Positions 2,511 through 10,033 of a DNA stretch of 64,000 nt are shown here, piece by piece (position 1 is the first letter of the stretch; every line of letters starts with the position of its first letter). Made by a program: the position numbers and the translations under genes. The notes under the pieces are model-generated. The model did no database searches. It had not been told where the DNA came from and saw nothing but the letters and a program-made list of their open reading frames with translations. Origin of the DNA: Hymenobacter sp. CRA2 (lineage in GTDB: Bacteria > Bacteroidota > Bacteroidia > Cytophagales > Hymenobacteraceae); assembly GCF_002007105.1 (NCBI RefSeq), contig NZ_MVBC01000001.1, positions 62,001 to 126,000 of the forward strand. The letters are read 5' to 3'.

Positions 2511-2790
2511 GCAATGGGGGTTGGAGGGTGGATGAAAGGAATTTTTCTGCCTATAAAGCAAGGCAGGGCCTTAAAACTAATCTTGTTTATTGCACATTTA
2601 AAAGGATTTTGATGAATGAATGTTTTTTTTCTGACTGACTCCCGATAATTAAAAGATGATAGAACATTTGCTTAATGCAATACAGGATTAGTCACAGATT
2701 TTGCTCGACAACTAACAATTGTCTTTATCTTACCGCGGCAAATATGTGTCACCCACCCAGGTCCATTGTTTCCCTCCAAACCCATCCTCT
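2511..2790. promoter_or_regulatory. AT-rich divergent intergenic region between two surface-protein genes
   Basis: This 280-base spacer is far more AT-rich than its flanks and separates two divergent exported-protein genes, so it must hold both promoters. For the rightward gene a plausible pair is TTTG at 2700-2703 and a weak -7 box, TATCTTAC, at 2726-2733. For the leftward gene no clear TAnnTTTG box was found. No RNA gene or repeat is visible. Confidence 0.4.
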
Positions 2791-5118
2791 ATGAAGCACA
2801 CGTTACGCGCTTCCCTTCTCTTACTGGCTGTCTGGTGTCTGGCCCTCTTTGGGGCTCAGCAGGCTTACGCGTCGCACGCCCAGGGCGGGCAGCTGACGTA
2901 TGAGTACCTGCGCACCAACGCCAATGGTACGCAGACGTACCGCATTACGGCGCGCTATTTCCGTGACTGTTCGGGCATTTCGGCCGAATCGTCGCTGCCC
3001 CTAGTTTGCCGGGTAGGCTCACCCACCACCTCGTGCAACAGCAATGATTCGCGCAACCTTACTGCCACGCTGGTGCGCGGCCAGCTTGTGTCAGGCACGC
3101 CTTACTGCTCAGCCGAGGCCGGTGCCAACCAGTGCAATTCCTCCAGCACCTTCCCCAACTACGAAACGGCCAAGTACACCGCCGACGTAGACCTGCCGCT
3201 GGCGCCGGAATGGACGCTGAGCGTGCAAATCAGCGCCCGCCCGTACATCGAAAACATCGGGGGCAACACCACCCTGCGCTTTGAAGCCACGCTGAACAAC
3301 CAGTTGGCACTGGCCAACGGCCAGCAGCGCACCGTCACCAACACCTCGCCGCAGTACCAGGATCAGGATATTCCGATACCGTTCGTCTGCGTAAGCCAGA
3401 CCACCACGCTGACCTTCTCGACCTTCGAGCCCGATGGTGACTCGCTGGTGTACTCGCTGGAGCGCCCCCTGGAAGGCTGCAACGTTTTCTCGACTTACGG
3501 CAGCATCTCCAGCCAGGGTGGCTACGTGCCCGCCCCGGAAGATTCGCCGACCAACCCCTGCGCCATTCGTCTGCCCTCGGGCACCACGAACTATTCGCCC
3601 ACTTACCCCATCCCGTCGTACGCCACCACCGGCAGCTGCCCCATCAAGCAGGGCACGCCGTACTTCGCCTTCAACCCGCAGCTGGGCAGCATCACTTTCA
3701 CGCCTTCGCAGTACTTCCCGAATACGCCGTCGGAAGATGGCAAAAACAAGTACTCGGTAGTAGGCAAAGTAACCGAGTACCGCCTCATCAACGGCCGCTA
3801 CTACAAAGTAGGCTCGGTGCGCCGCGACATGCTCGTCATCATCATCAACTGCAGCGGCAACGGCGTGCCGAACGCCCCGGTAGCTACCGGCGTAACCCCC
3901 GGCGCCAACCCCACCATCGTCAACACGGCCGACTCGACGGTTATCAGCGTGTACTCCTGCAACTACTCGCAGGTACGCGTGCGCTTCACCGACCCGAACC
4001 CCCAGCAGCAGCTGACGGTATCCATACCCCAAACGTCGCTGAACTCGCTGGCTGACATCGTAGTACCGAACGGCTACGTGCTGTCGGGCAATGGCACCAC
4101 CAGCCCCGTAGCAGCCTTCTACTTCCAGCCCTCGCCGCAGCTGGTGGGTACCACCATCCGCATCCCGGTGCGCATCGAAGACAACGCCTGCCCGATCAAA
4201 GGCGTGCAGAACCGTATCATCGTCGTTAAAGTGCTGCGCGGCAACTTTGCCACGGCAGTAGCCGCCGCCAACAACGCCAGCACGGACCCCATCATCTGCT
4301 ACGGCACCTCCATTCAGCTGCGCGGCTCGGTAGTTCGTCCGGACTCGGTACGCAACGGCCTGCAGACCTACAGCTACACCTGGGCCGCCGCCAACGGCCT
4401 GAACCCCAGCGACGCGAACCGTCAGAACATAACTGTATCGCCGACGCAGACCACGCGCTACCGCCTGCGCATCGCGCCCACCACGGGTTACTCGCCCGGC
4501 CTGTGCGGCGACACCACCTCGATCCGCGTGCGCGTGGCTCCGCAAGTGCTGGCTGCTTTCCGCACCGACTCGGCTGCTGTTGCCAACGGCCGCTTCAACC
4601 GCCCCCCGCGCGTGTTCACCTTCGTGAACCAGTCGCGCGTGAACAACGTGCAGACGGCGCAGGGTATTGACTCCGTGCGCTGGACCTACCAGCGCGTAAC
4701 CGATGGCAAAGGCCAGCCGGTAACCGAAAGTCCGGTTCGCTTCTCGGGCCGCTTCACGCCGAATGCCCTCACCCTGAGCCAGTCGGGCACTTACATCATC
4801 CGCCTCAGCGTAGCCAACACTACCCCGGGCGTGACCTGCCCCGCTTCGGTGGCAGCCTACAAAGTGTCCGTGCCCGATCTGACGGTGCCCAACATCTTTA
4901 CGCCCAACAAAGACGGCATGAACGATACGTTTATCGTGCAGGCCGGTCAGGAAGGCAACAAGATGGAAATCTTCAACCGTTGGGGCCGCAAGATCAAGGA
5001 GTACGCCAACTACAAGAACGATTGGGACGGCGAAGGTCAGCCCGCCGGTGTGTACTACTACCAAATCACGGCCCAGGACGGCAAAGTGACCAAAGGCTGG
5101 GTGGAGCTGGTTCGCTAG
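2791..5118 (+). CDS. Gliding-motility-type C-terminal domain surface protein
   Basis: A 775-residue exported protein. ATG 2791 is chosen because it starts directly with a signal peptide (MKHTLRASLLLLAVW...AYA); a TTG 24 codons upstream would put a non-signal leader in front of it. The body is beta-rich with many paired cysteines and PKD-like segments. The last ~85 residues (VPNIFTPNKDGMNDTF ... YYYQITAQDGKVTKGWVELVR) are the gliding motility-associated C-terminal (CHU_C/type B T9SS) domain, so the product is expected at the cell surface via the type IX system. Substrate or partner is not apparent. A strong terminator follows. Confidence 0.85.
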   Translation: MKHTLRASLLLLAVWCLALFGAQQAYASHAQGGQLTYEYLRTNANGTQTYRITARYFRDCSGISAESSLPLVCRVGSPTTSCNSNDSRNLTATLVRGQLVSGTPYCSAEAGANQCNSSSTFPNYETAKYTADVDLPLAPEWTLSVQISARPYIENIGGNTTLRFEATLNNQLALANGQQRTVTNTSPQYQDQDIPIPFVCVSQTTTLTFSTFEPDGDSLVYSLERPLEGCNVFSTYGSISSQGGYVPAPEDSPTNPCAIRLPSGTTNYSPTYPIPSYATTGSCPIKQGTPYFAFNPQLGSITFTPSQYFPNTPSEDGKNKYSVVGKVTEYRLINGRYYKVGSVRRDMLVIIINCSGNGVPNAPVATGVTPGANPTIVNTADSTVISVYSCNYSQVRVRFTDPNPQQQLTVSIPQTSLNSLADIVVPNGYVLSGNGTTSPVAAFYFQPSPQLVGTTIRIPVRIEDNACPIKGVQNRIIVVKVLRGNFATAVAAANNASTDPIICYGTSIQLRGSVVRPDSVRNGLQTYSYTWAAANGLNPSDANRQNITVSPTQTTRYRLRIAPTTGYSPGLCGDTTSIRVRVAPQVLAAFRTDSAAVANGRFNRPPRVFTFVNQSRVNNVQTAQGIDSVRWTYQRVTDGKGQPVTESPVRFSGRFTPNALTLSQSGTYIIRLSVANTTPGVTCPASVAAYKVSVPDLTVPNIFTPNKDGMNDTFIVQAGQEGNKMEIFNRWGRKIKEYANYKNDWDGEGQPAGVYYYQITAQDGKVTKGWVELVR

Positions 5119-5137
5119 TCTCGCTTCCCTCGCTACT

Positions 5138-5170
5138 GAAAAAGGCGCTGCTCGATGCAGCGCCTTTTTT
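5138..5170 (+). terminator. Rho-independent terminator
   Basis: A 10-bp perfect stem (AAAGGCGCTG at 5141-5150 with CAGCGCCTTT at 5158-5167), a 7-base loop and a T run, 20 bases after the stop of the surface protein gene. Confidence 0.85.
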
Positions 5171-5268
5171 ATGCTCTTCCGGCTAACCTGGTCAGCCACG
5201 TCTGTAAAGAGAGCTTTCCGTCAAAACCTTTTGGGGCGGAATCAGTAATTAAGTAGGTTTAAATTTTT

Positions 5269-5286
5269 TTTTAGACCAGGCTAAAT
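5269..5286 (+). promoter_or_regulatory. Putative metal-regulator operator upstream of NRAMP gene
   Basis: TTTTAGACCAGGCTAAAT matches 15 of 18 positions of the perfect palindrome at 6746-6763 upstream of the TonB receptor; both have the form TTTAG-N6-CTAAA. It lies just upstream of a near-consensus -7 box (TTCCTTTG, 5291-5298), so a bound protein would block RNA polymerase. Placement before a Mn/Fe transporter suggests a DtxR/MntR- or Fur-type regulator; the regulator itself is not in the window. Confidence 0.6.
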
Positions 5287-5316
5287 TACGTTCCTTTGCG
5301 CGAAGACTCTGACTTA

Positions 5317-6693
5317 ATGATACCTACCAATACCAGCTCTCCGGTTCCGCCCGCGGTTGTGGAAGCGCCCGACGAACCCGGATGGCGTCAGCGCCGCATT
5401 GCGCCTTCCCTGGGGGATGTATACGCATCTATCCGCGTGCCGGGTCACGGCGCTTCGTTTTGGCGGAAGTTGCTAGCGTTTTGGGGGCCGGGCCTGATGG
5501 TAGCCGTGGGCTATATGGACCCCGGCAACTGGGCCACCGATCTGGCTGGTGGGGCCCGCTACGGCTACACGCTGCTCTCGGTGGTGCTGCTGTCCAACCT
5601 GTTTGCCATGCTGCTGCAGCATTTGGCGGCCAAGCTGGGCATAGTTACGGGGCGCGACCTGGCTCAGGCCTGCCGCGACCATTACTCCCGCCCGGTGGCC
5701 TTGGCCTTGTGGGTACTGTGCGAAATAGCCATTGCCGCCTGCGACTTGGCCGAAGTCATCGGCTCGGCCATTGCCCTAAACCTGCTGTTCGGCATTCCGC
5801 TGGCCGTGGGGGTGCTACTCACCATCCTGGATGTGCTGGTGGTGCTATACTTCCAGAACCGGGGCTTCCGGCTGATCGAAGGCCTTGTGGCTGGGCTGAT
5901 TGCCGTTATTTTCGCCTGCTTCGCCTACGAAGTAATCGTGTCGCGGCCCGACTGGGCGGCGCTGGCGAAAGGGCTGGTGCCGCACACGGAAATTGTGACC
6001 AACCCCGGCATGCTCTACGTTGCCATCGGGATTCTGGGCGCCACCGTGATGCCGCACAACCTGTATCTGCACTCCAGCGTGGTGCAGACACGTGCTTTCG
6101 ACCGCGACGAACCGGGCAAACGCATGGCCGTGAAGTTTGCTACCATCGACTCGACGGTGGCGCTGTTTTTGGCCTTCTTCGTCAATGCGGCCATTCTGGT
6201 GCTGTCGGCGGCGGCCTTTCACCGCATCGGCCGCCACGACGTAGCCGACATCAACCAAGCCCACGAGCTGCTGACGCCGGTACTCGGGGCCGGAGCCGCC
6301 AGCATGCTGTTTGCCGTAGCACTACTAGCATCGGGCCAGAACTCTACCCTGACGGGTACGCTGGCGGGCCAAATCGTGATGGAGGGTTTTCTGAACCTGA
6401 AGCTCAAACCCTGGGTGCGCCGGCTGATTACGCGCCTGATTGCGGTGGTGCCGGCATTTGTGGTGACGCTCATCTACGGAGAGAAGGGCACCGGCGAGCT
6501 GCTGGTGCTGAGCCAGGTTATCCTGTCGCTGCAGCTCAGTTTTGCCGTGGTGCCCCTGGTCCTCTTCACGTCGGACCGCCGCAAAATGGGCATTTTCGTC
6601 AACCGCCCGTGGGTGAAAATCACTGCGTGGGCCGTAACGGTCATTATCGTTGCCCTGAACGGCTACCTACTGCTCCAAACGTTCGGGCTCTAA
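5317..6693 (+). CDS. mntH: NRAMP-family divalent metal (Mn2+/Fe2+) transporter, MntH-like
   Basis: A 458-residue inner-membrane protein with about 11 hydrophobic helices. It carries both NRAMP signatures: DPGN at residues 68-71 in the first helix and AxxMPHN at ~242-248 in the sixth; the D, N, A and M of these motifs are the metal ligands in the family. NRAMP proteins import Mn2+ and Fe2+ with protons. ATG 5317 is preferred to the TTG at 5296, because that TTG lies inside a -7-like box (TTCCTTTG). The polar N-terminal ~45 residues are longer than in many MntH proteins. The palindromic site upstream and the TonB receptor downstream suggest a metal-repressed uptake unit. The choice between Mn and Fe as main substrate is inference. 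Confidence 0.9.
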
Positions 6694-6698
6694 CTCAG

Positions 6699-6731
6699 AA
6701 GCGGTGTGCGCTGGTCGTACGCCGCTTTTTT
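6699..6731 (+). terminator. Rho-independent terminator after NRAMP gene
   Basis: A 12-bp stem with two G-U pairs (AAGCGGTGTGCG paired with CGTACGCCGCTT) followed by six Ts, six bases after the stop. It separates the NRAMP transcript from the TonB receptor, which therefore has its own promoter and its own operator copy. Confidence 0.8.
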
Positions 6732-6745
6732 GTGGCCATTTTCAG

Positions 6746-6763
6746 ATTTAGACCCGTCTAAAT
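6746..6763 (+). promoter_or_regulatory. Perfect 18-bp palindromic operator upstream of TonB receptor
   Basis: ATTTAGACCCGTCTAAAT consists of two 8-bp arms, ATTTAGAC and GTCTAAAT, around CC. It lies 25 bases before the receptor start codon and is the better copy of the site found upstream of the NRAMP gene (5269-5286). Symmetry, position and sharing between two metal-uptake genes argue for a transcription-factor site rather than a terminator, since the NRAMP gene already has one. Confidence 0.65.
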
Positions 6764-6787: not shown

Positions 6788-9040
6788 ATGCGCCTAAGCT
6801 TACTCTTGTTTCTCTTCCTGTGGATGATACGTGCCGCCGCCCAAACGCCGACCGGCAGCTTGCACGGCTCGGTGCGCGCCGGCGGGCAGCCCGTGCCTTT
6901 TGCCAGCGTTGGGCTGAAAGGCACCACCATAGGCACCACGGCGAATGAACACGGCAGCTTTGCCCTGGCGAAGATTCCAGCGGGTACGCATCAACTGGTC
7001 GTTACGGCGCTGGGGTACCGCCCGGCCGAGCAAACGGTGGAAATCAGAGCTGACCAGGCCACGCACCAGCTGGTGCTGCTGGTGCCGGCCAGCAGTGAGC
7101 TAGCCGACGTGGTCGTGAGCGGCACGCTCGGGGAAGTGGTGAAAAGCGAGTCGCCGGTACCAGTGGAGCTGTACACGCCGAAGTATTTCCAGAAGAACCC
7201 TGCTCCCAGCCTGTTTGAGAACCTAGCGCTGGTGAACGGAGTACGCCCGCAGCTGAACTGCAGCGTGTGCAACACCGGCGACATCCACATCAACGGGCTG
7301 GAAGGGCCCTACACCATGGTGCTGATCGACGGCATGCCCATTGTGTCGGCGCTGAGCACAGTGTACGGGCTAAGCGGCATCCCCAATAGCATGGTAGAGC
7401 GCATCGAGGTAGTAAAGGGGCCGGCCTCCACGTTGTACGGCTCGGAAGCGGTGGGCGGGCTGATCAACGTCATTACCAAAAGCCCGCAGAAAGCGCCGCC
7501 GCTGAGCGTGGATGTGTTCGGCACCTCCTTTGGCGAGCTGAACCTGGACGCCGGTACCCGGGCCCGATTCGGCAAAGCCACCACCCTGTTGACTACCAAC
7601 GTCTTCGGCTACGACCGGCACCGCGATGTAAATCTCGACGGCTTTACCGACGTGCCCACGCAGCAGCGCGTGTCGGTGTTTAACAAGTGGAGCCTGGAGC
7701 GGCCCGACAACCGGCCTGCGACGCTGGCGGCCCGCTACTATTACGAGGACCGGTTTGGCGGGCAGCTGGGCTGGCGGCCCGAGTTTCGGGGCACCGACAG
7801 CGTGTACGGGGAGAGTATTTACACCAACCGCTACGAGCTGCTGGGCCAATATCAGCTGCCGGTGAAGCGGGAAAAGCTGCTGCTCAGCGGCTCCTACAAC
7901 CGCCACCAGCAGAATTCGGCCTACGGCCTCACCCGCTACCAAGCCACCCAGCACGTGGGCTTCGGGCAGCTCACGTGGAACAAACCGCTTAGCATCCGGC
8001 ACCAGCTGTTGCTGGGCACGGCCTACCGCTACACCTGGTACGACGACAACAGCCCCGCTACGGCCGAAGGCGCCGGCGAAACCCTCCGCAACCGCCCCGA
8101 CCAGGTACGCCTGCCGGGCGTGTTCGGGCAGGACGAGTGGCGCCTGACTGAGCACACGACGCTGCTCACCGGCCTGCGCCTCGACCACGACCCGCGCCAC
8201 GGGCTGGTGCCCTCGGGCCGCGCCAATTACAAGTGGGGCACCGACGACAACCGCCGTGTGGTGCGCCTGGGCGTAGGCAACGGCTTTCGGGTGGTGAACC
8301 TGTTTACCGAGGACCACGCCGCCCTGACCGGCGCCCGCAGGGTGATAGTGGCCGAGCAGCTACGTCCCGAACGCTCCTGGAACGGTACCCTGAACTTTAC
8401 GCAGCAACTAGGGCCCGACGCCCGGCCGCTGGTGCTGGATGCCAGCCTGTTCTGGACCTATTTCACCAACAAAATCACACCGGACTACGACACCGACCCT
8501 AACCAGATAATCTACCGCAACCTGCGCGGCTACGCCGTGTCGCGCGGACTGACGCTGAATGTGGATTGGACGCTGACTTCGGCCCTGAAGCTCATCGGGG
8601 GCGTGACGCTGCTGGACGTATTCCGCCGTGAGCCCGCGCGTCCGGAGCGCCTTCGGCAGGTGCAAACGCCGGGTTTCTCGGGCACCTTCGCGGCTTCTTA
8701 TTCCTGGCCGCGCTGGGGCCTTTCCGTGGACTACACCGGCCTCGTCACCGGCCCCATGCACCTGCCCGTGCAGCCCAATGATTACCGACCGGCCCGCTCG
8801 CCGTGGTACTCGCTGCAAAACCTACAGCTGACCAAGCAGTTGAGCAAGCACCTCGAAGCGTACGGCGGCGTAAAAAATCTGCTCAACTTCCTGCCGCGCC
8901 ACGTACTGATGCGCCCCTTCGACCCCTTCGACAAGCGCATAAACCAGGATAATCCCAACGGCTACAGCTTTGACACCGAGTATAACTACGCACCAGTACA
9001 AGGACGGCGCGGCTTTCTAGGCGTCCGCTACGTGCTATAA
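6788..9040 (+). CDS. TonB-dependent outer-membrane receptor (probable metal uptake)
   Basis: A 750-residue protein with a signal peptide (MRLSLLLFLFLWMIRAAAQ), a CarboxypepD-reg-like domain (~25-105), a plug domain (~120-230, with GPYTMVLIDGMPI and VERIEVVKGPASTLYGSEAVGG) and a 22-strand-type beta barrel to the C-terminus. TonB receptors take up scarce metal complexes or glycans using the proton motive force. The plug holds a CSVC motif at about residues 158-161, ahead of GDIHINGLEG; an exposed CxxC may contact metal. The shared operator and the adjacent NRAMP transporter point to manganese or iron, an inference. There is no SusD partner, which argues against a glycan role. Confidence 0.88.
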   Translation: MRLSLLLFLFLWMIRAAAQTPTGSLHGSVRAGGQPVPFASVGLKGTTIGTTANEHGSFALAKIPAGTHQLVVTALGYRPAEQTVEIRADQATHQLVLLVPASSELADVVVSGTLGEVVKSESPVPVELYTPKYFQKNPAPSLFENLALVNGVRPQLNCSVCNTGDIHINGLEGPYTMVLIDGMPIVSALSTVYGLSGIPNSMVERIEVVKGPASTLYGSEAVGGLINVITKSPQKAPPLSVDVFGTSFGELNLDAGTRARFGKATTLLTTNVFGYDRHRDVNLDGFTDVPTQQRVSVFNKWSLERPDNRPATLAARYYYEDRFGGQLGWRPEFRGTDSVYGESIYTNRYELLGQYQLPVKREKLLLSGSYNRHQQNSAYGLTRYQATQHVGFGQLTWNKPLSIRHQLLLGTAYRYTWYDDNSPATAEGAGETLRNRPDQVRLPGVFGQDEWRLTEHTTLLTGLRLDHDPRHGLVPSGRANYKWGTDDNRRVVRLGVGNGFRVVNLFTEDHAALTGARRVIVAEQLRPERSWNGTLNFTQQLGPDARPLVLDASLFWTYFTNKITPDYDTDPNQIIYRNLRGYAVSRGLTLNVDWTLTSALKLIGGVTLLDVFRREPARPERLRQVQTPGFSGTFAASYSWPRWGLSVDYTGLVTGPMHLPVQPNDYRPARSPWYSLQNLQLTKQLSKHLEAYGGVKNLLNFLPRHVLMRPFDPFDKRINQDNPNGYSFDTEYNYAPVQGRRGFLGVRYVL

Positions 9041-9127: not shown

Positions 9128-9979
9128 ATGTACCGTTTTCTTAGCCTCGCCGCGCTCCTGCTCTGGGGTGCCGCCGGGCAAGCGCAGTCAGGCGGCTCCT
9201 CGCCCTACGACTCGGCGCATTTCTCCCTATTCAAGCCCGTACCGCGCAATCAATTGCGCGAGCTGCGGCCCGACCGCCCCGGCGTCACCGAAAGCCCGTT
9301 TACGGTGGATGCCGGCCACTTTCAGCTCGAAACCGATGGCATCCGCCTCGTCAACCGCCGCGACGCCGACCAGCGCGAACGGGAGTGGCACGCGGCCTAC
9401 GCCATGGCCAAGCTGGGCCTAAGCCGGCGCACCGACATACAGTTGGAAGTGCCCTTTTTCTCGGCGCAGAAGCAGCGCCAGGCCGATGACCCGAACTGGG
9501 AGCGGCACCGCGGCTTCGGCGACGTAGCCGTGCGCCTGAAGCACAACTTCATCGGCGACGACGAAGAATGCCCCGTGGCCCTTGGCACGGTGGGCTGGGT
9601 GCGGCTGCCCACCGGCGGCCAGGCCGGCGACGGCGGCGTGGAAGGCGGGCTGATCGTACCCGTCGACGTGAACCTGGGCCACCACTGGGACTTCGAGGCG
9701 CAGCTGGAGGGCAAGCTGAACTACGACCGGGAGTCGAGCAGCCACTACTTGGGCGTGGTGCCCTCTGCCGCCCTGGAACACGATTTCAACGACACGTTTT
9801 CGTTGATGGTGGAAGGCGTTACGCGCTGGGACGCGCAGCATTGGGGTTGGCGCAGCTCGGTAAACGTGGCGCCCATCATCAACGTCACCGACAACCTGCA
9901 ATTCGACCTGGGCGCCCACCTGGCGCTGAACCGCGAAACCGACCGGGAATTCTTCGTTGGATTTACGTACCGGCGCTAA
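9128..9979 (+). CDS. Outer-membrane channel-like protein (MetA-pathway/transporter family)
   Basis: A 283-residue exported protein: signal peptide MYRFLSLAALLLWGAAGQAQ, then RPDRPGVTESPFTVDAGHFQ, the characteristic opening of the 'putative MetA-pathway of phenol degradation' barrel family (PF13557-like), and amphipathic beta strands ending in FVGFTYRR. Family members are thought to be outer-membrane channels but few have been tested. It starts 87 bases after the TonB receptor in the same direction and ends at a terminator, so it may belong to the same transcript; the phenol label should not be taken as its substrate. Confidence 0.7.
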   Translation: MYRFLSLAALLLWGAAGQAQSGGSSPYDSAHFSLFKPVPRNQLRELRPDRPGVTESPFTVDAGHFQLETDGIRLVNRRDADQREREWHAAYAMAKLGLSRRTDIQLEVPFFSAQKQRQADDPNWERHRGFGDVAVRLKHNFIGDDEECPVALGTVGWVRLPTGGQAGDGGVEGGLIVPVDVNLGHHWDFEAQLEGKLNYDRESSSHYLGVVPSAALEHDFNDTFSLMVEGVTRWDAQHWGWRSSVNVAPIINVTDNLQFDLGAHLALNRETDREFFVGFTYRR

Positions 9980-9991
9980 CCGCTGGGGCGC

Positions 9992-10033
9992 AAAAAAGGC
10001 GGCCGAACCAGTTGGTTCGGCCGCCTTTCTTTA
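9992..10033. terminator. Bidirectional terminator between convergent genes
   Basis: A perfect 16-bp stem (AAAGGCGGCCGAACCA at 9995-10010 against 10013-10028) with A and T runs on the two sides, lying between the end of the rightward barrel gene and the end of the leftward SPW-type gene. Confidence 0.85.

Follow-up and report, generated by a model that had tools for sequence, protein, structure and literature searches.

The 64,000-nucleotide stretch of DNA analyzed here, referred to as the window, comes from Hymenobacter sp. CRA2 (contig NZ_MVBC01000001.1, positions 62,001 to 126,000 of the forward strand) and holds two neighboring transporter genes, each preceded by a copy of the inverted repeat TTTAG-N6-CTAAA. 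The first gene, mntH (5317..6693, + strand), encodes an NRAMP-family Mn(2+) importer of 458 aa, the product scoring 645 bits against the NCBIfam model NF001923 (cut-off 430) and 462 bits, also above the cut-off, against Pfam Nramp. The second (6788..9040, + strand) encodes a protein of 750 aa with CarbopepD_reg_2, plug and barrel domains in Pfam; the plug and barrel matches are above the cut-off and define it as a TonB-dependent receptor. Box 1, a putative MntR/DtxR-type operator (TTTTAGACCAGGCTAAAT, 5269..5286, no strand assigned), lies upstream of mntH with 30 bases separating it from the ATG at 5317. Box 2, likewise a putative operator (ATTTAGACCCGTCTAAAT, 6746..6763, no strand assigned), lies upstream of the receptor gene, 24 bases before the ATG at 6788.

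A sequence-only reading of the window had taken the two boxes as marks of a two-promoter metal-uptake regulon, with a terminator between the genes and a regulator that it could not name. Its positions for the sites and their identity at 15/18 positions were reproduced exactly. The description of box 2 as a perfect palindrome was true of the arms, which form a perfect 8-bp inverted repeat, and failed at the center, where a nonpalindromic CC brings the self-complementarity to 16/18; for box 1, the figure is 12/18. A terminator-like structure was found as well: a hairpin that separates mntH from the receptor gene (6697..6729, + strand, with the T-run reaching 6731) has a folding energy of -20.9 kcal/mol and a z-score of -3.6, was equaled in 0/200 shuffles and ends in six T. 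A simple terminator scan did not list it.

Four bases past box 1 stands a possible -7 promoter element (TTCCTTTG, 5291..5298, + strand), so called on the basis of the Bacteroidota -7 consensus TAnnTTTG. CTTTG follows the box in 7/8 Hymenobacter mntH promoters. If TTCCTTTG is a -7 element, box 1 would fall within the promoter spacer.

The receptor gene is followed, after 87 bases, by a gene for an outer-membrane beta-barrel protein (PF13557 by Pfam; 9128..9979, + strand), possibly co-transcribed with it, and then by a terminator-like hairpin with a 15-pair stem and a T-rich tail (9995..10028, + strand). The latter has the longest stem listed in the terminator scan of the region, which found 5 hairpins against 5.1 expected in shuffles. 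A search of the window with Rfam returned a tRNA only. An antisense open reading frame (ORF; 3109-5199, - strand, 696 aa), overlapping a CHU_C-domain gene at 2719-5118, is probably a composition artefact.

Abundance, placing and conservation of the box

By number, the box does not stand out from its background, and this counts against a regulon reading. The 5.88-Mb genome contains three exact copies of TTTAG-N6-CTAAA and seven of a reversed control pattern; allowing up to three mismatches to the 18-mer gave four sites, the box pair being the best two, against seven for the control, and TTTAG-R-Y-NN-R-Y-CTAAA with at most two mismatches gave 46 sites against 91. Within the window, box 1 and box 2 are the only exact matches, and with up to two mismatches there are 6 matches where 10 are expected, making such loose matches uninformative. 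Of the three exact sites in the genome, however, two belong to mntH and the receptor, ~1.5 kb apart before transporter genes; none precedes the gene of the DtxR-family protein of this genome. The third exact site (L001), between ORFs resembling by eye an aldo/keto reductase and an oxidoreductase, was taken as a chance match and rejected as a regulon member. Besides box 1, three sites had one mismatch to TTTAG-R-Y-NN-R-Y-CTAAA (L280, L281 and L282), and these were rejected likewise, the L281 site falling within an ORF and none having a metal-importer ORF that we recognized by eye.

The abundance is not raised; the nonchance part of the signal lies in the placing of the box and its conservation. 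The exact letters of the 18-mer were too strict for a scan of the phylum (2/395 genomes against 1 for the control), and gene-anchored tests were therefore used. In a family sample, mntH was found in 58/100 and the receptor in 41/100 genomes; in a phylum sample, the receptor was found in 44/198. The loci considered were the best-scoring ones: 30 and a further 9 of 59 mntH matches, 30 of 41 family receptors, 28 new loci of 44 phylum receptors (14 weaker matches being outside the count) and 30 of 99 DtxR-family matches. Many of them are from close relatives (Mucilaginibacter, Spirosoma, Larkinella), and the locus counts below are thus not independent events.

All eight Hymenobacter genomes, our own included, carry mntH, in each case preceded by the box, and in the 7/8 that also have the receptor, each receptor has its own box. 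Within the family, TTTAG-N6-CTAAA was found upstream of mntH in 30/30 and 5/5 further loci, or 35/35 across two genera, and upstream of the receptor orthologues in 29/30, the remaining one having TTAG-N6-CTAA. Among the 28 phylum loci, the longer form precedes the receptor in 18 and the shorter in 26. The latter count was anchored on the start of the match; anchored on the extrapolated gene start, it is 23/28, being lowered by receptors that lack the N-terminal domain. In comparison, the two forms occurred in 0.05-0.17% and 0.7-1.4% of shuffled sequences, respectively, the shuffling being done in blocks of two bases and thus not exactly preserving dinucleotides (other shuffles were of single bases). 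Among the other receptors of the same genome, the box was found in 0/29 when the 1,200 bases before the plug were searched, 29 of the 49 others having a locus. A conserved inverted repeat in the promoters of Mn genes, as in MntR-type operators, is hence present, with four distant mntH loci as exceptions. The near relatives bear out the notion of a two-promoter metal-uptake regulon, which on such comparative grounds appears sound.

The box travels with each gene and not with the pair. A second box was found past mntH in 12/12 loci with an orthologous receptor and in 0/4 loci without a receptor match, while the receptors of five genomes without an mntH match (L193, L194, L198, L200, L201) keep theirs. 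The earlier suggestion that each copy serves its own promoter agrees with this pattern. The receptor past mntH is of a different kind in 19 further loci, and in eight of these (L138, L139, L146-L149, L155 and L158) the box has been kept, indicating that the regulon tolerates receptor exchange. In one Hymenobacter genome (G001, L197), mntH and its box occur with no receptor match, and a relative of the PF13557 barrel lies ~1 kb beyond mntH.

When public genomes were scanned for the exact pattern ATTTAGAC-NN-GTCTAAAT, at least 119 stretches were returned; among the matches listed, 75 loci were classed as Bacteroidota by the record title and 44 as others. An ORF starting at most 400 bp from the box was a relative of the DtxR-family protein of our genome, of MntH or of the receptor in 41/75 of the former and 3/44 of the latter. 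Adding OprB, a 121-aa protein, a di-haem oxidoreductase (DHOR), a second barrel, ZnuA and the CQNC receptor to the reference set raised the counts to 59/75 and 5/44, figures that are partly circular because the added proteins were picked after viewing the loci. Behind the box stand genes for OprB porins, for barrels of the alginate-export type and of PF13557, for a ZnuA-type binding protein and for di-haem oxidoreductases, but also one for an M20 peptidase and one whose product looks SusD-like by eye.

Several of these neighbors were observed repeatedly. OprB-family porins stand behind the box in loci of the Mucilaginibacter type (L035:824-2161 and L104:524-1882, - strand), two of them identified by Pfam and nine loci by similarity to L035, hinting that a porin does the outer-membrane step there. 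Six Larkinella loci have a 121-aa protein without a Pfam match between the box and the CxxC receptor (L016:7520-7882, - strand), and DHOR genes follow the box at L119:7026-8000, opposite a DtxR-family gene, and at L123:1059-2261 (- strand). In two Anaerolineae metagenome-assembled genomes (MAGs; L068 and L100), ORFs resembling the ZnuA-type binding protein follow the box, and the motif may thus serve metal genes outside Bacteroidota, too.

Could two stretches of AT-rich intergenic DNA simply resemble each other here by accident? The absence of any genome-wide excess is what one would expect in that case, and 39 of the 44 exact matches listed from other phyla have none of the reference genes adjoining. 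The conservation, however, is specific to position, holding before mntH in two genera and before the receptor orthologues and being absent from the 29 other receptors, and we regard chance as an extremely improbable explanation.

The placing of the box also points to the family of its regulator. Among the 75 Bacteroidota matches listed, the box precedes 29 DtxR relatives. In several Mucilaginibacter and Lutibacter loci and one of Chryseobacterium, the distance to the DtxR-family ORF is 12-53 bases; in Spirosoma, Fibrisoma and Dyadobacter, the box lies between a DtxR-family gene and mntH; and in Winogradskyella, it has a DtxR-family gene on one side and, on the other, the gene of a receptor with CQTC. 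Within the 1.5-kb flanks of the phylum receptor loci, a DtxR-family gene was found in 10/28 and mntH in 3/28, and in G409, a second DtxR-family gene is divergent beside the receptor with TTAG-N6-CTAA between them. The sequence-only reading had likened the site to DtxR/MntR-type boxes, and its occurrence before DtxR-family genes elsewhere in the phylum supports the comparison. A Fur-family protein (Fur, Mur or Zur) would be the other candidate, as the genome holds two Fur-family genes and Mur controls Mn uptake in some alphaproteobacteria. Fur boxes look different, however, and the many boxes before DtxR-family genes and the DtxR-family genes flanking the receptor speak against Fur control, which we consider highly unlikely.

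The candidate regulator and its metal

The genome encodes a single DtxR-family (PF02742) protein, 219 aa in length (G000:C22:143817-144473), and the regulator left unnamed by the earlier reading now has a named candidate: on the sequence evidence, this MntR-like protein is most likely the shared regulator of both boxes. Its domains are all above the cut-off (the N-terminal DNA-binding domain PF01325, 60 bits; PF02742, for metal binding and dimerization, 111 bits; one FeoA, 47 bits), and relatives are present in 98/100 family genomes. The closest solved relatives are 5zr4 and 8pvt, followed by ScaR and SloR. Using the ligand names of MntR and DtxR as given in PMC4805248, we found H79, E83, H98, E102, E105 and H106 to be kept in 30/30 family loci. 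Position 8, which is Asp8 in MntR and Met10 in DtxR, is Asn, and position 102 is Glu in place of the Cys of iron-type DtxR, both in 30/30. Position 11 is Lys, where Bacillus subtilis MntR has Glu. The 34 DtxR relatives found at the box loci listed have either Asn (27) or Asp (7) at position 8, and 32 of them have Glu at position 102. The predicted ligand set, in which the Lys at position 11 departs from B. subtilis MntR, leans toward Mn rather than Fe, short of proof.

We consider it probable that both boxes are operators of an MntR-like repressor that controls mntH and the receptor gene jointly, with the receptor importing Mn or a Mn complex. The MntR-like DtxR-family repressor, encoded elsewhere in the genome, would recognize both boxes and, with enough Mn(2+), would occupy them in its metal-loaded form and block the two promoters. 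On Mn depletion, the repressor would leave, and mntH and the receptor gene would be transcribed together from their separate promoters, the barrel protein gene probably along with the latter. The receptor with its plug CxxC would then draw on TonB energy to move Mn(2+) or a Mn complex through the outer membrane, and MntH would take Mn across the inner membrane.

The same boxes and a DtxR-family repressor could also respond to Fe(2+), in the manner of IdeR or DtxR, in which case the NRAMP protein would carry iron and the receptor would take up a ferric complex. Besides Mn(2+), NRAMP proteins are able to transport Fe(2+), the family model TIGR01197 is named Mn2+/Fe2+, and the nearest folds of the receptor include iron-chelate receptors. 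According to PMC4805248, PgMntR of Porphyromonas gingivalis also binds Fe(II). Three observations oppose iron: the iron-type Cys of DtxR and its Met10 are replaced by Glu and Asn in 30/30 family regulators; MntH is far above the cut-off of a model for Mn(2+) NRAMP proteins; and the genome has its two Fur-family genes. On balance, we judge iron to be an unlikely effector, and Mn remains the preferred metal.

The receptor and its plug motif

The receptor is marked by a pair of cysteines in its plug domain, C158-S-V-C161, encoded at 7259..7270 (+ strand). The two cysteines are invariant in 43/43 aligned receptors, and a plug CxxC is present in 28/28 phylum and 30/30 family loci, other forms among the orthologues being CNVC, CNIC, CGVC and CAVC. 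In comparison, among the 50 plug matches of the same genome, two have any cysteine at all and one, the receptor of box 2, has a CxxC. Two box-linked receptors carry CQNC: L130 from an Ignavibacteria MAG and L054 from Hydrotalea, the latter cut by the end of the stretch. The CSVC of the window receptor is in register with the CQNC of L130 in an ungapped part of an alignment with 34% identity over 308 columns; we regard it as a CxxC relative and have not filed it as CQNC-type. An AlphaFold model of the receptor had a mean predicted local distance difference test (pLDDT) score of 81 and a predicted template modeling (pTM) score of 0.76. The nearest folds found with Foldseek were those of Cir, FepA and BtuB, and these neighbors gave no clear substrate.

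The gene past the receptor varies. Relatives of the thioredoxin-fold protein (PF13098) of L201 are encoded there in 13/28 phylum loci and, the window included, in 0/30 family loci examined; L201 (G405) belongs to the same family and itself has such a gene, and L198, also of the family, has a DSBA-like gene in its place. A homologue of the PF13557 barrel follows the receptor in 13/30 family loci. In L241, one of the phylum orthologues, the receptor gene has one internal stop in frame, and its thioredoxin-fold neighbor has WRYC where the relatives have CxYC.

The likeliest substrate of the receptor, judged from its genomic setting, is manganese, perhaps complexed. The receptor could be under MntR control and still import another substrate, such as Zn, Cu or a chelate that serves during Mn shortage, and the CxxC would then be a soft-metal or redox site. 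A plug thiol pair suits softer metals or redox chemistry, and the thioredoxin-fold genes past the receptor in the phylum agree with this; its standing beside mntH in Hymenobacter and 3/28 phylum loci does not, nor does the fact that in other Bacteroidota the same box occurs at mntH, at porin genes and at the gene of a ZnuA-type binding protein. We consider a substrate other than Mn possible, if doubtful.

Several further results, concerning the box, the regulator and the receptor, tell against joint control by an MntR-like repressor and import of Mn by the receptor. In three other family genera, the box precedes mntH in 0/4 loci; these mntH proteins are 55-58% identical and their genes come after a DtxR-family gene, and no box was found before that gene in the part seen, a region complete in 1/4. 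Two of the 28 phylum receptors (L232 and L240) lack even TTAG-N6-CTAA, and 16/75 of the Bacteroidota box loci listed have none of the reference genes adjoining. Where mntH is followed by a different receptor, the second box is found in 8/14 loci and 0/5 further ones, or 8/19, and none of the exchanged receptors has a CxxC in the aligned part (14 of the 19 loci checked): the regulon can thus do without the CxxC, and the box is lost in some cases. The gene of the DtxR-family candidate is on another contig than the boxes, and its product scored at best 171 bits against an NCBIfam MntR model with a cut-off of 350, two other MntR models also being below theirs. A box was found before the candidate's gene in 0/30 family loci, our own genome among them, and the regulator is thus not autoregulated by the box there; autoregulation is usual for MntR-type regulators but not obligatory. 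Finally, the plug loop of the receptor was modeled poorly (pLDDT about 56-63), and Mn(2+) is not usually bound by a pair of thiols.

A model that fits these observations has the CxxC-plug receptor under MntR control widespread in Bacteroidota, with the Hymenobacter locus as a branch whose partner has changed. A more far-reaching version, plausible to us though short of probable, is that CxxC-plug receptors form a class of MntR-controlled outer-membrane Mn importers across Bacteroidota, beyond the few orders described so far. The thiol pair would be a redox-switched gate or metal site, with a dedicated thioredoxin-fold protein of the periplasm as the partner that keeps it reduced; the Hymenobacter lineage would have lost this partner and recruited an outer-membrane barrel, and the same regulon in Mucilaginibacter would rely on OprB-type porins for passage through the outer membrane.

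Comparison with known systems

Control of mntH by Mn is ordinary; what is new is the box as a motif common across Bacteroidota and a class of CxxC receptors placed under it. The passage of manganese across the outer membrane of Gram-negative bacteria is poorly understood, and it becomes testable in harmless environmental bacteria now that an operator has been defined, a candidate regulator named and a recognizable, conserved receptor described. A general Mn regulon in a large phylum is suggested by the thioredoxin-fold partner and by the variety of outer-membrane proteins that stand under one box. Our literature search, with subscription journals mostly outside its coverage, found no description of the box or the regulon in Bacteroidota.

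Among the solved regulators, ScaR, SloR, 5zr4 and 8pvt share the E-x-x-E-H ligand run with the candidate, whose family differs from them in having Asn at the Asp position; the similarity is moderate. A relative from Bacteroidota is PgMntR, which according to PMC4805248 binds the FB2 Mn-transporter promoter more tightly with Mn and, like our candidate, is a Bacteroidota DtxR-family regulator tied to a Mn importer. PgMntR is described there with Asp19, Cys108 and two FeoA domains, whereas the Hymenobacter candidate has N8, E102 and one FeoA. The main text of that paper seems to name no palindrome: it has no instance of "palindrom," of "inverted repeat" or of "TTTAG." For the receptor, a parallel is provided by MnoT of Burkholderia thailandensis, a TonB-dependent Mn receptor working with a secreted Mn-binding protein, as described in PMC13217887; the TonB-dependent import of Mn across the outer membrane that we propose for the window receptor is likened to it by description and not by sequence.

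A close counterpart is the MntR module of Stenotrophomonas maltophilia, which, as presented in PMC13217887 (2026), comprises mntH, mntP, a TonB-dependent receptor (TBDR) with plug CQNC and the thioredoxin-fold pTFP. That study suggested Mn coordination by the CQNC receptor on the basis of modeling and showed that TBDR and pTFP are syntenic in Lysobacterales, Sphingomonadales and Opitutales; its main text does not contain the word stem "bacteroid." The plug motif of the window receptor is CSVC and not CQNC, the register with CQNC coming from L130 as the S. maltophilia protein sequence was outside the comparison, and the receptor is followed by the PF13557 barrel where S. maltophilia has a thioredoxin-fold gene. 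The S. maltophilia box is reported as a 25-bp palindrome, and its likeness to the Hymenobacter box is drawn without a comparison of letters. The thioredoxin-fold gene has its parallel in 13/28 of the phylum loci, and the two systems have in common the arrangement at their core, with one MntR-type box preceding mntH and another preceding the gene of a TonB receptor that has a CxxC in its plug.

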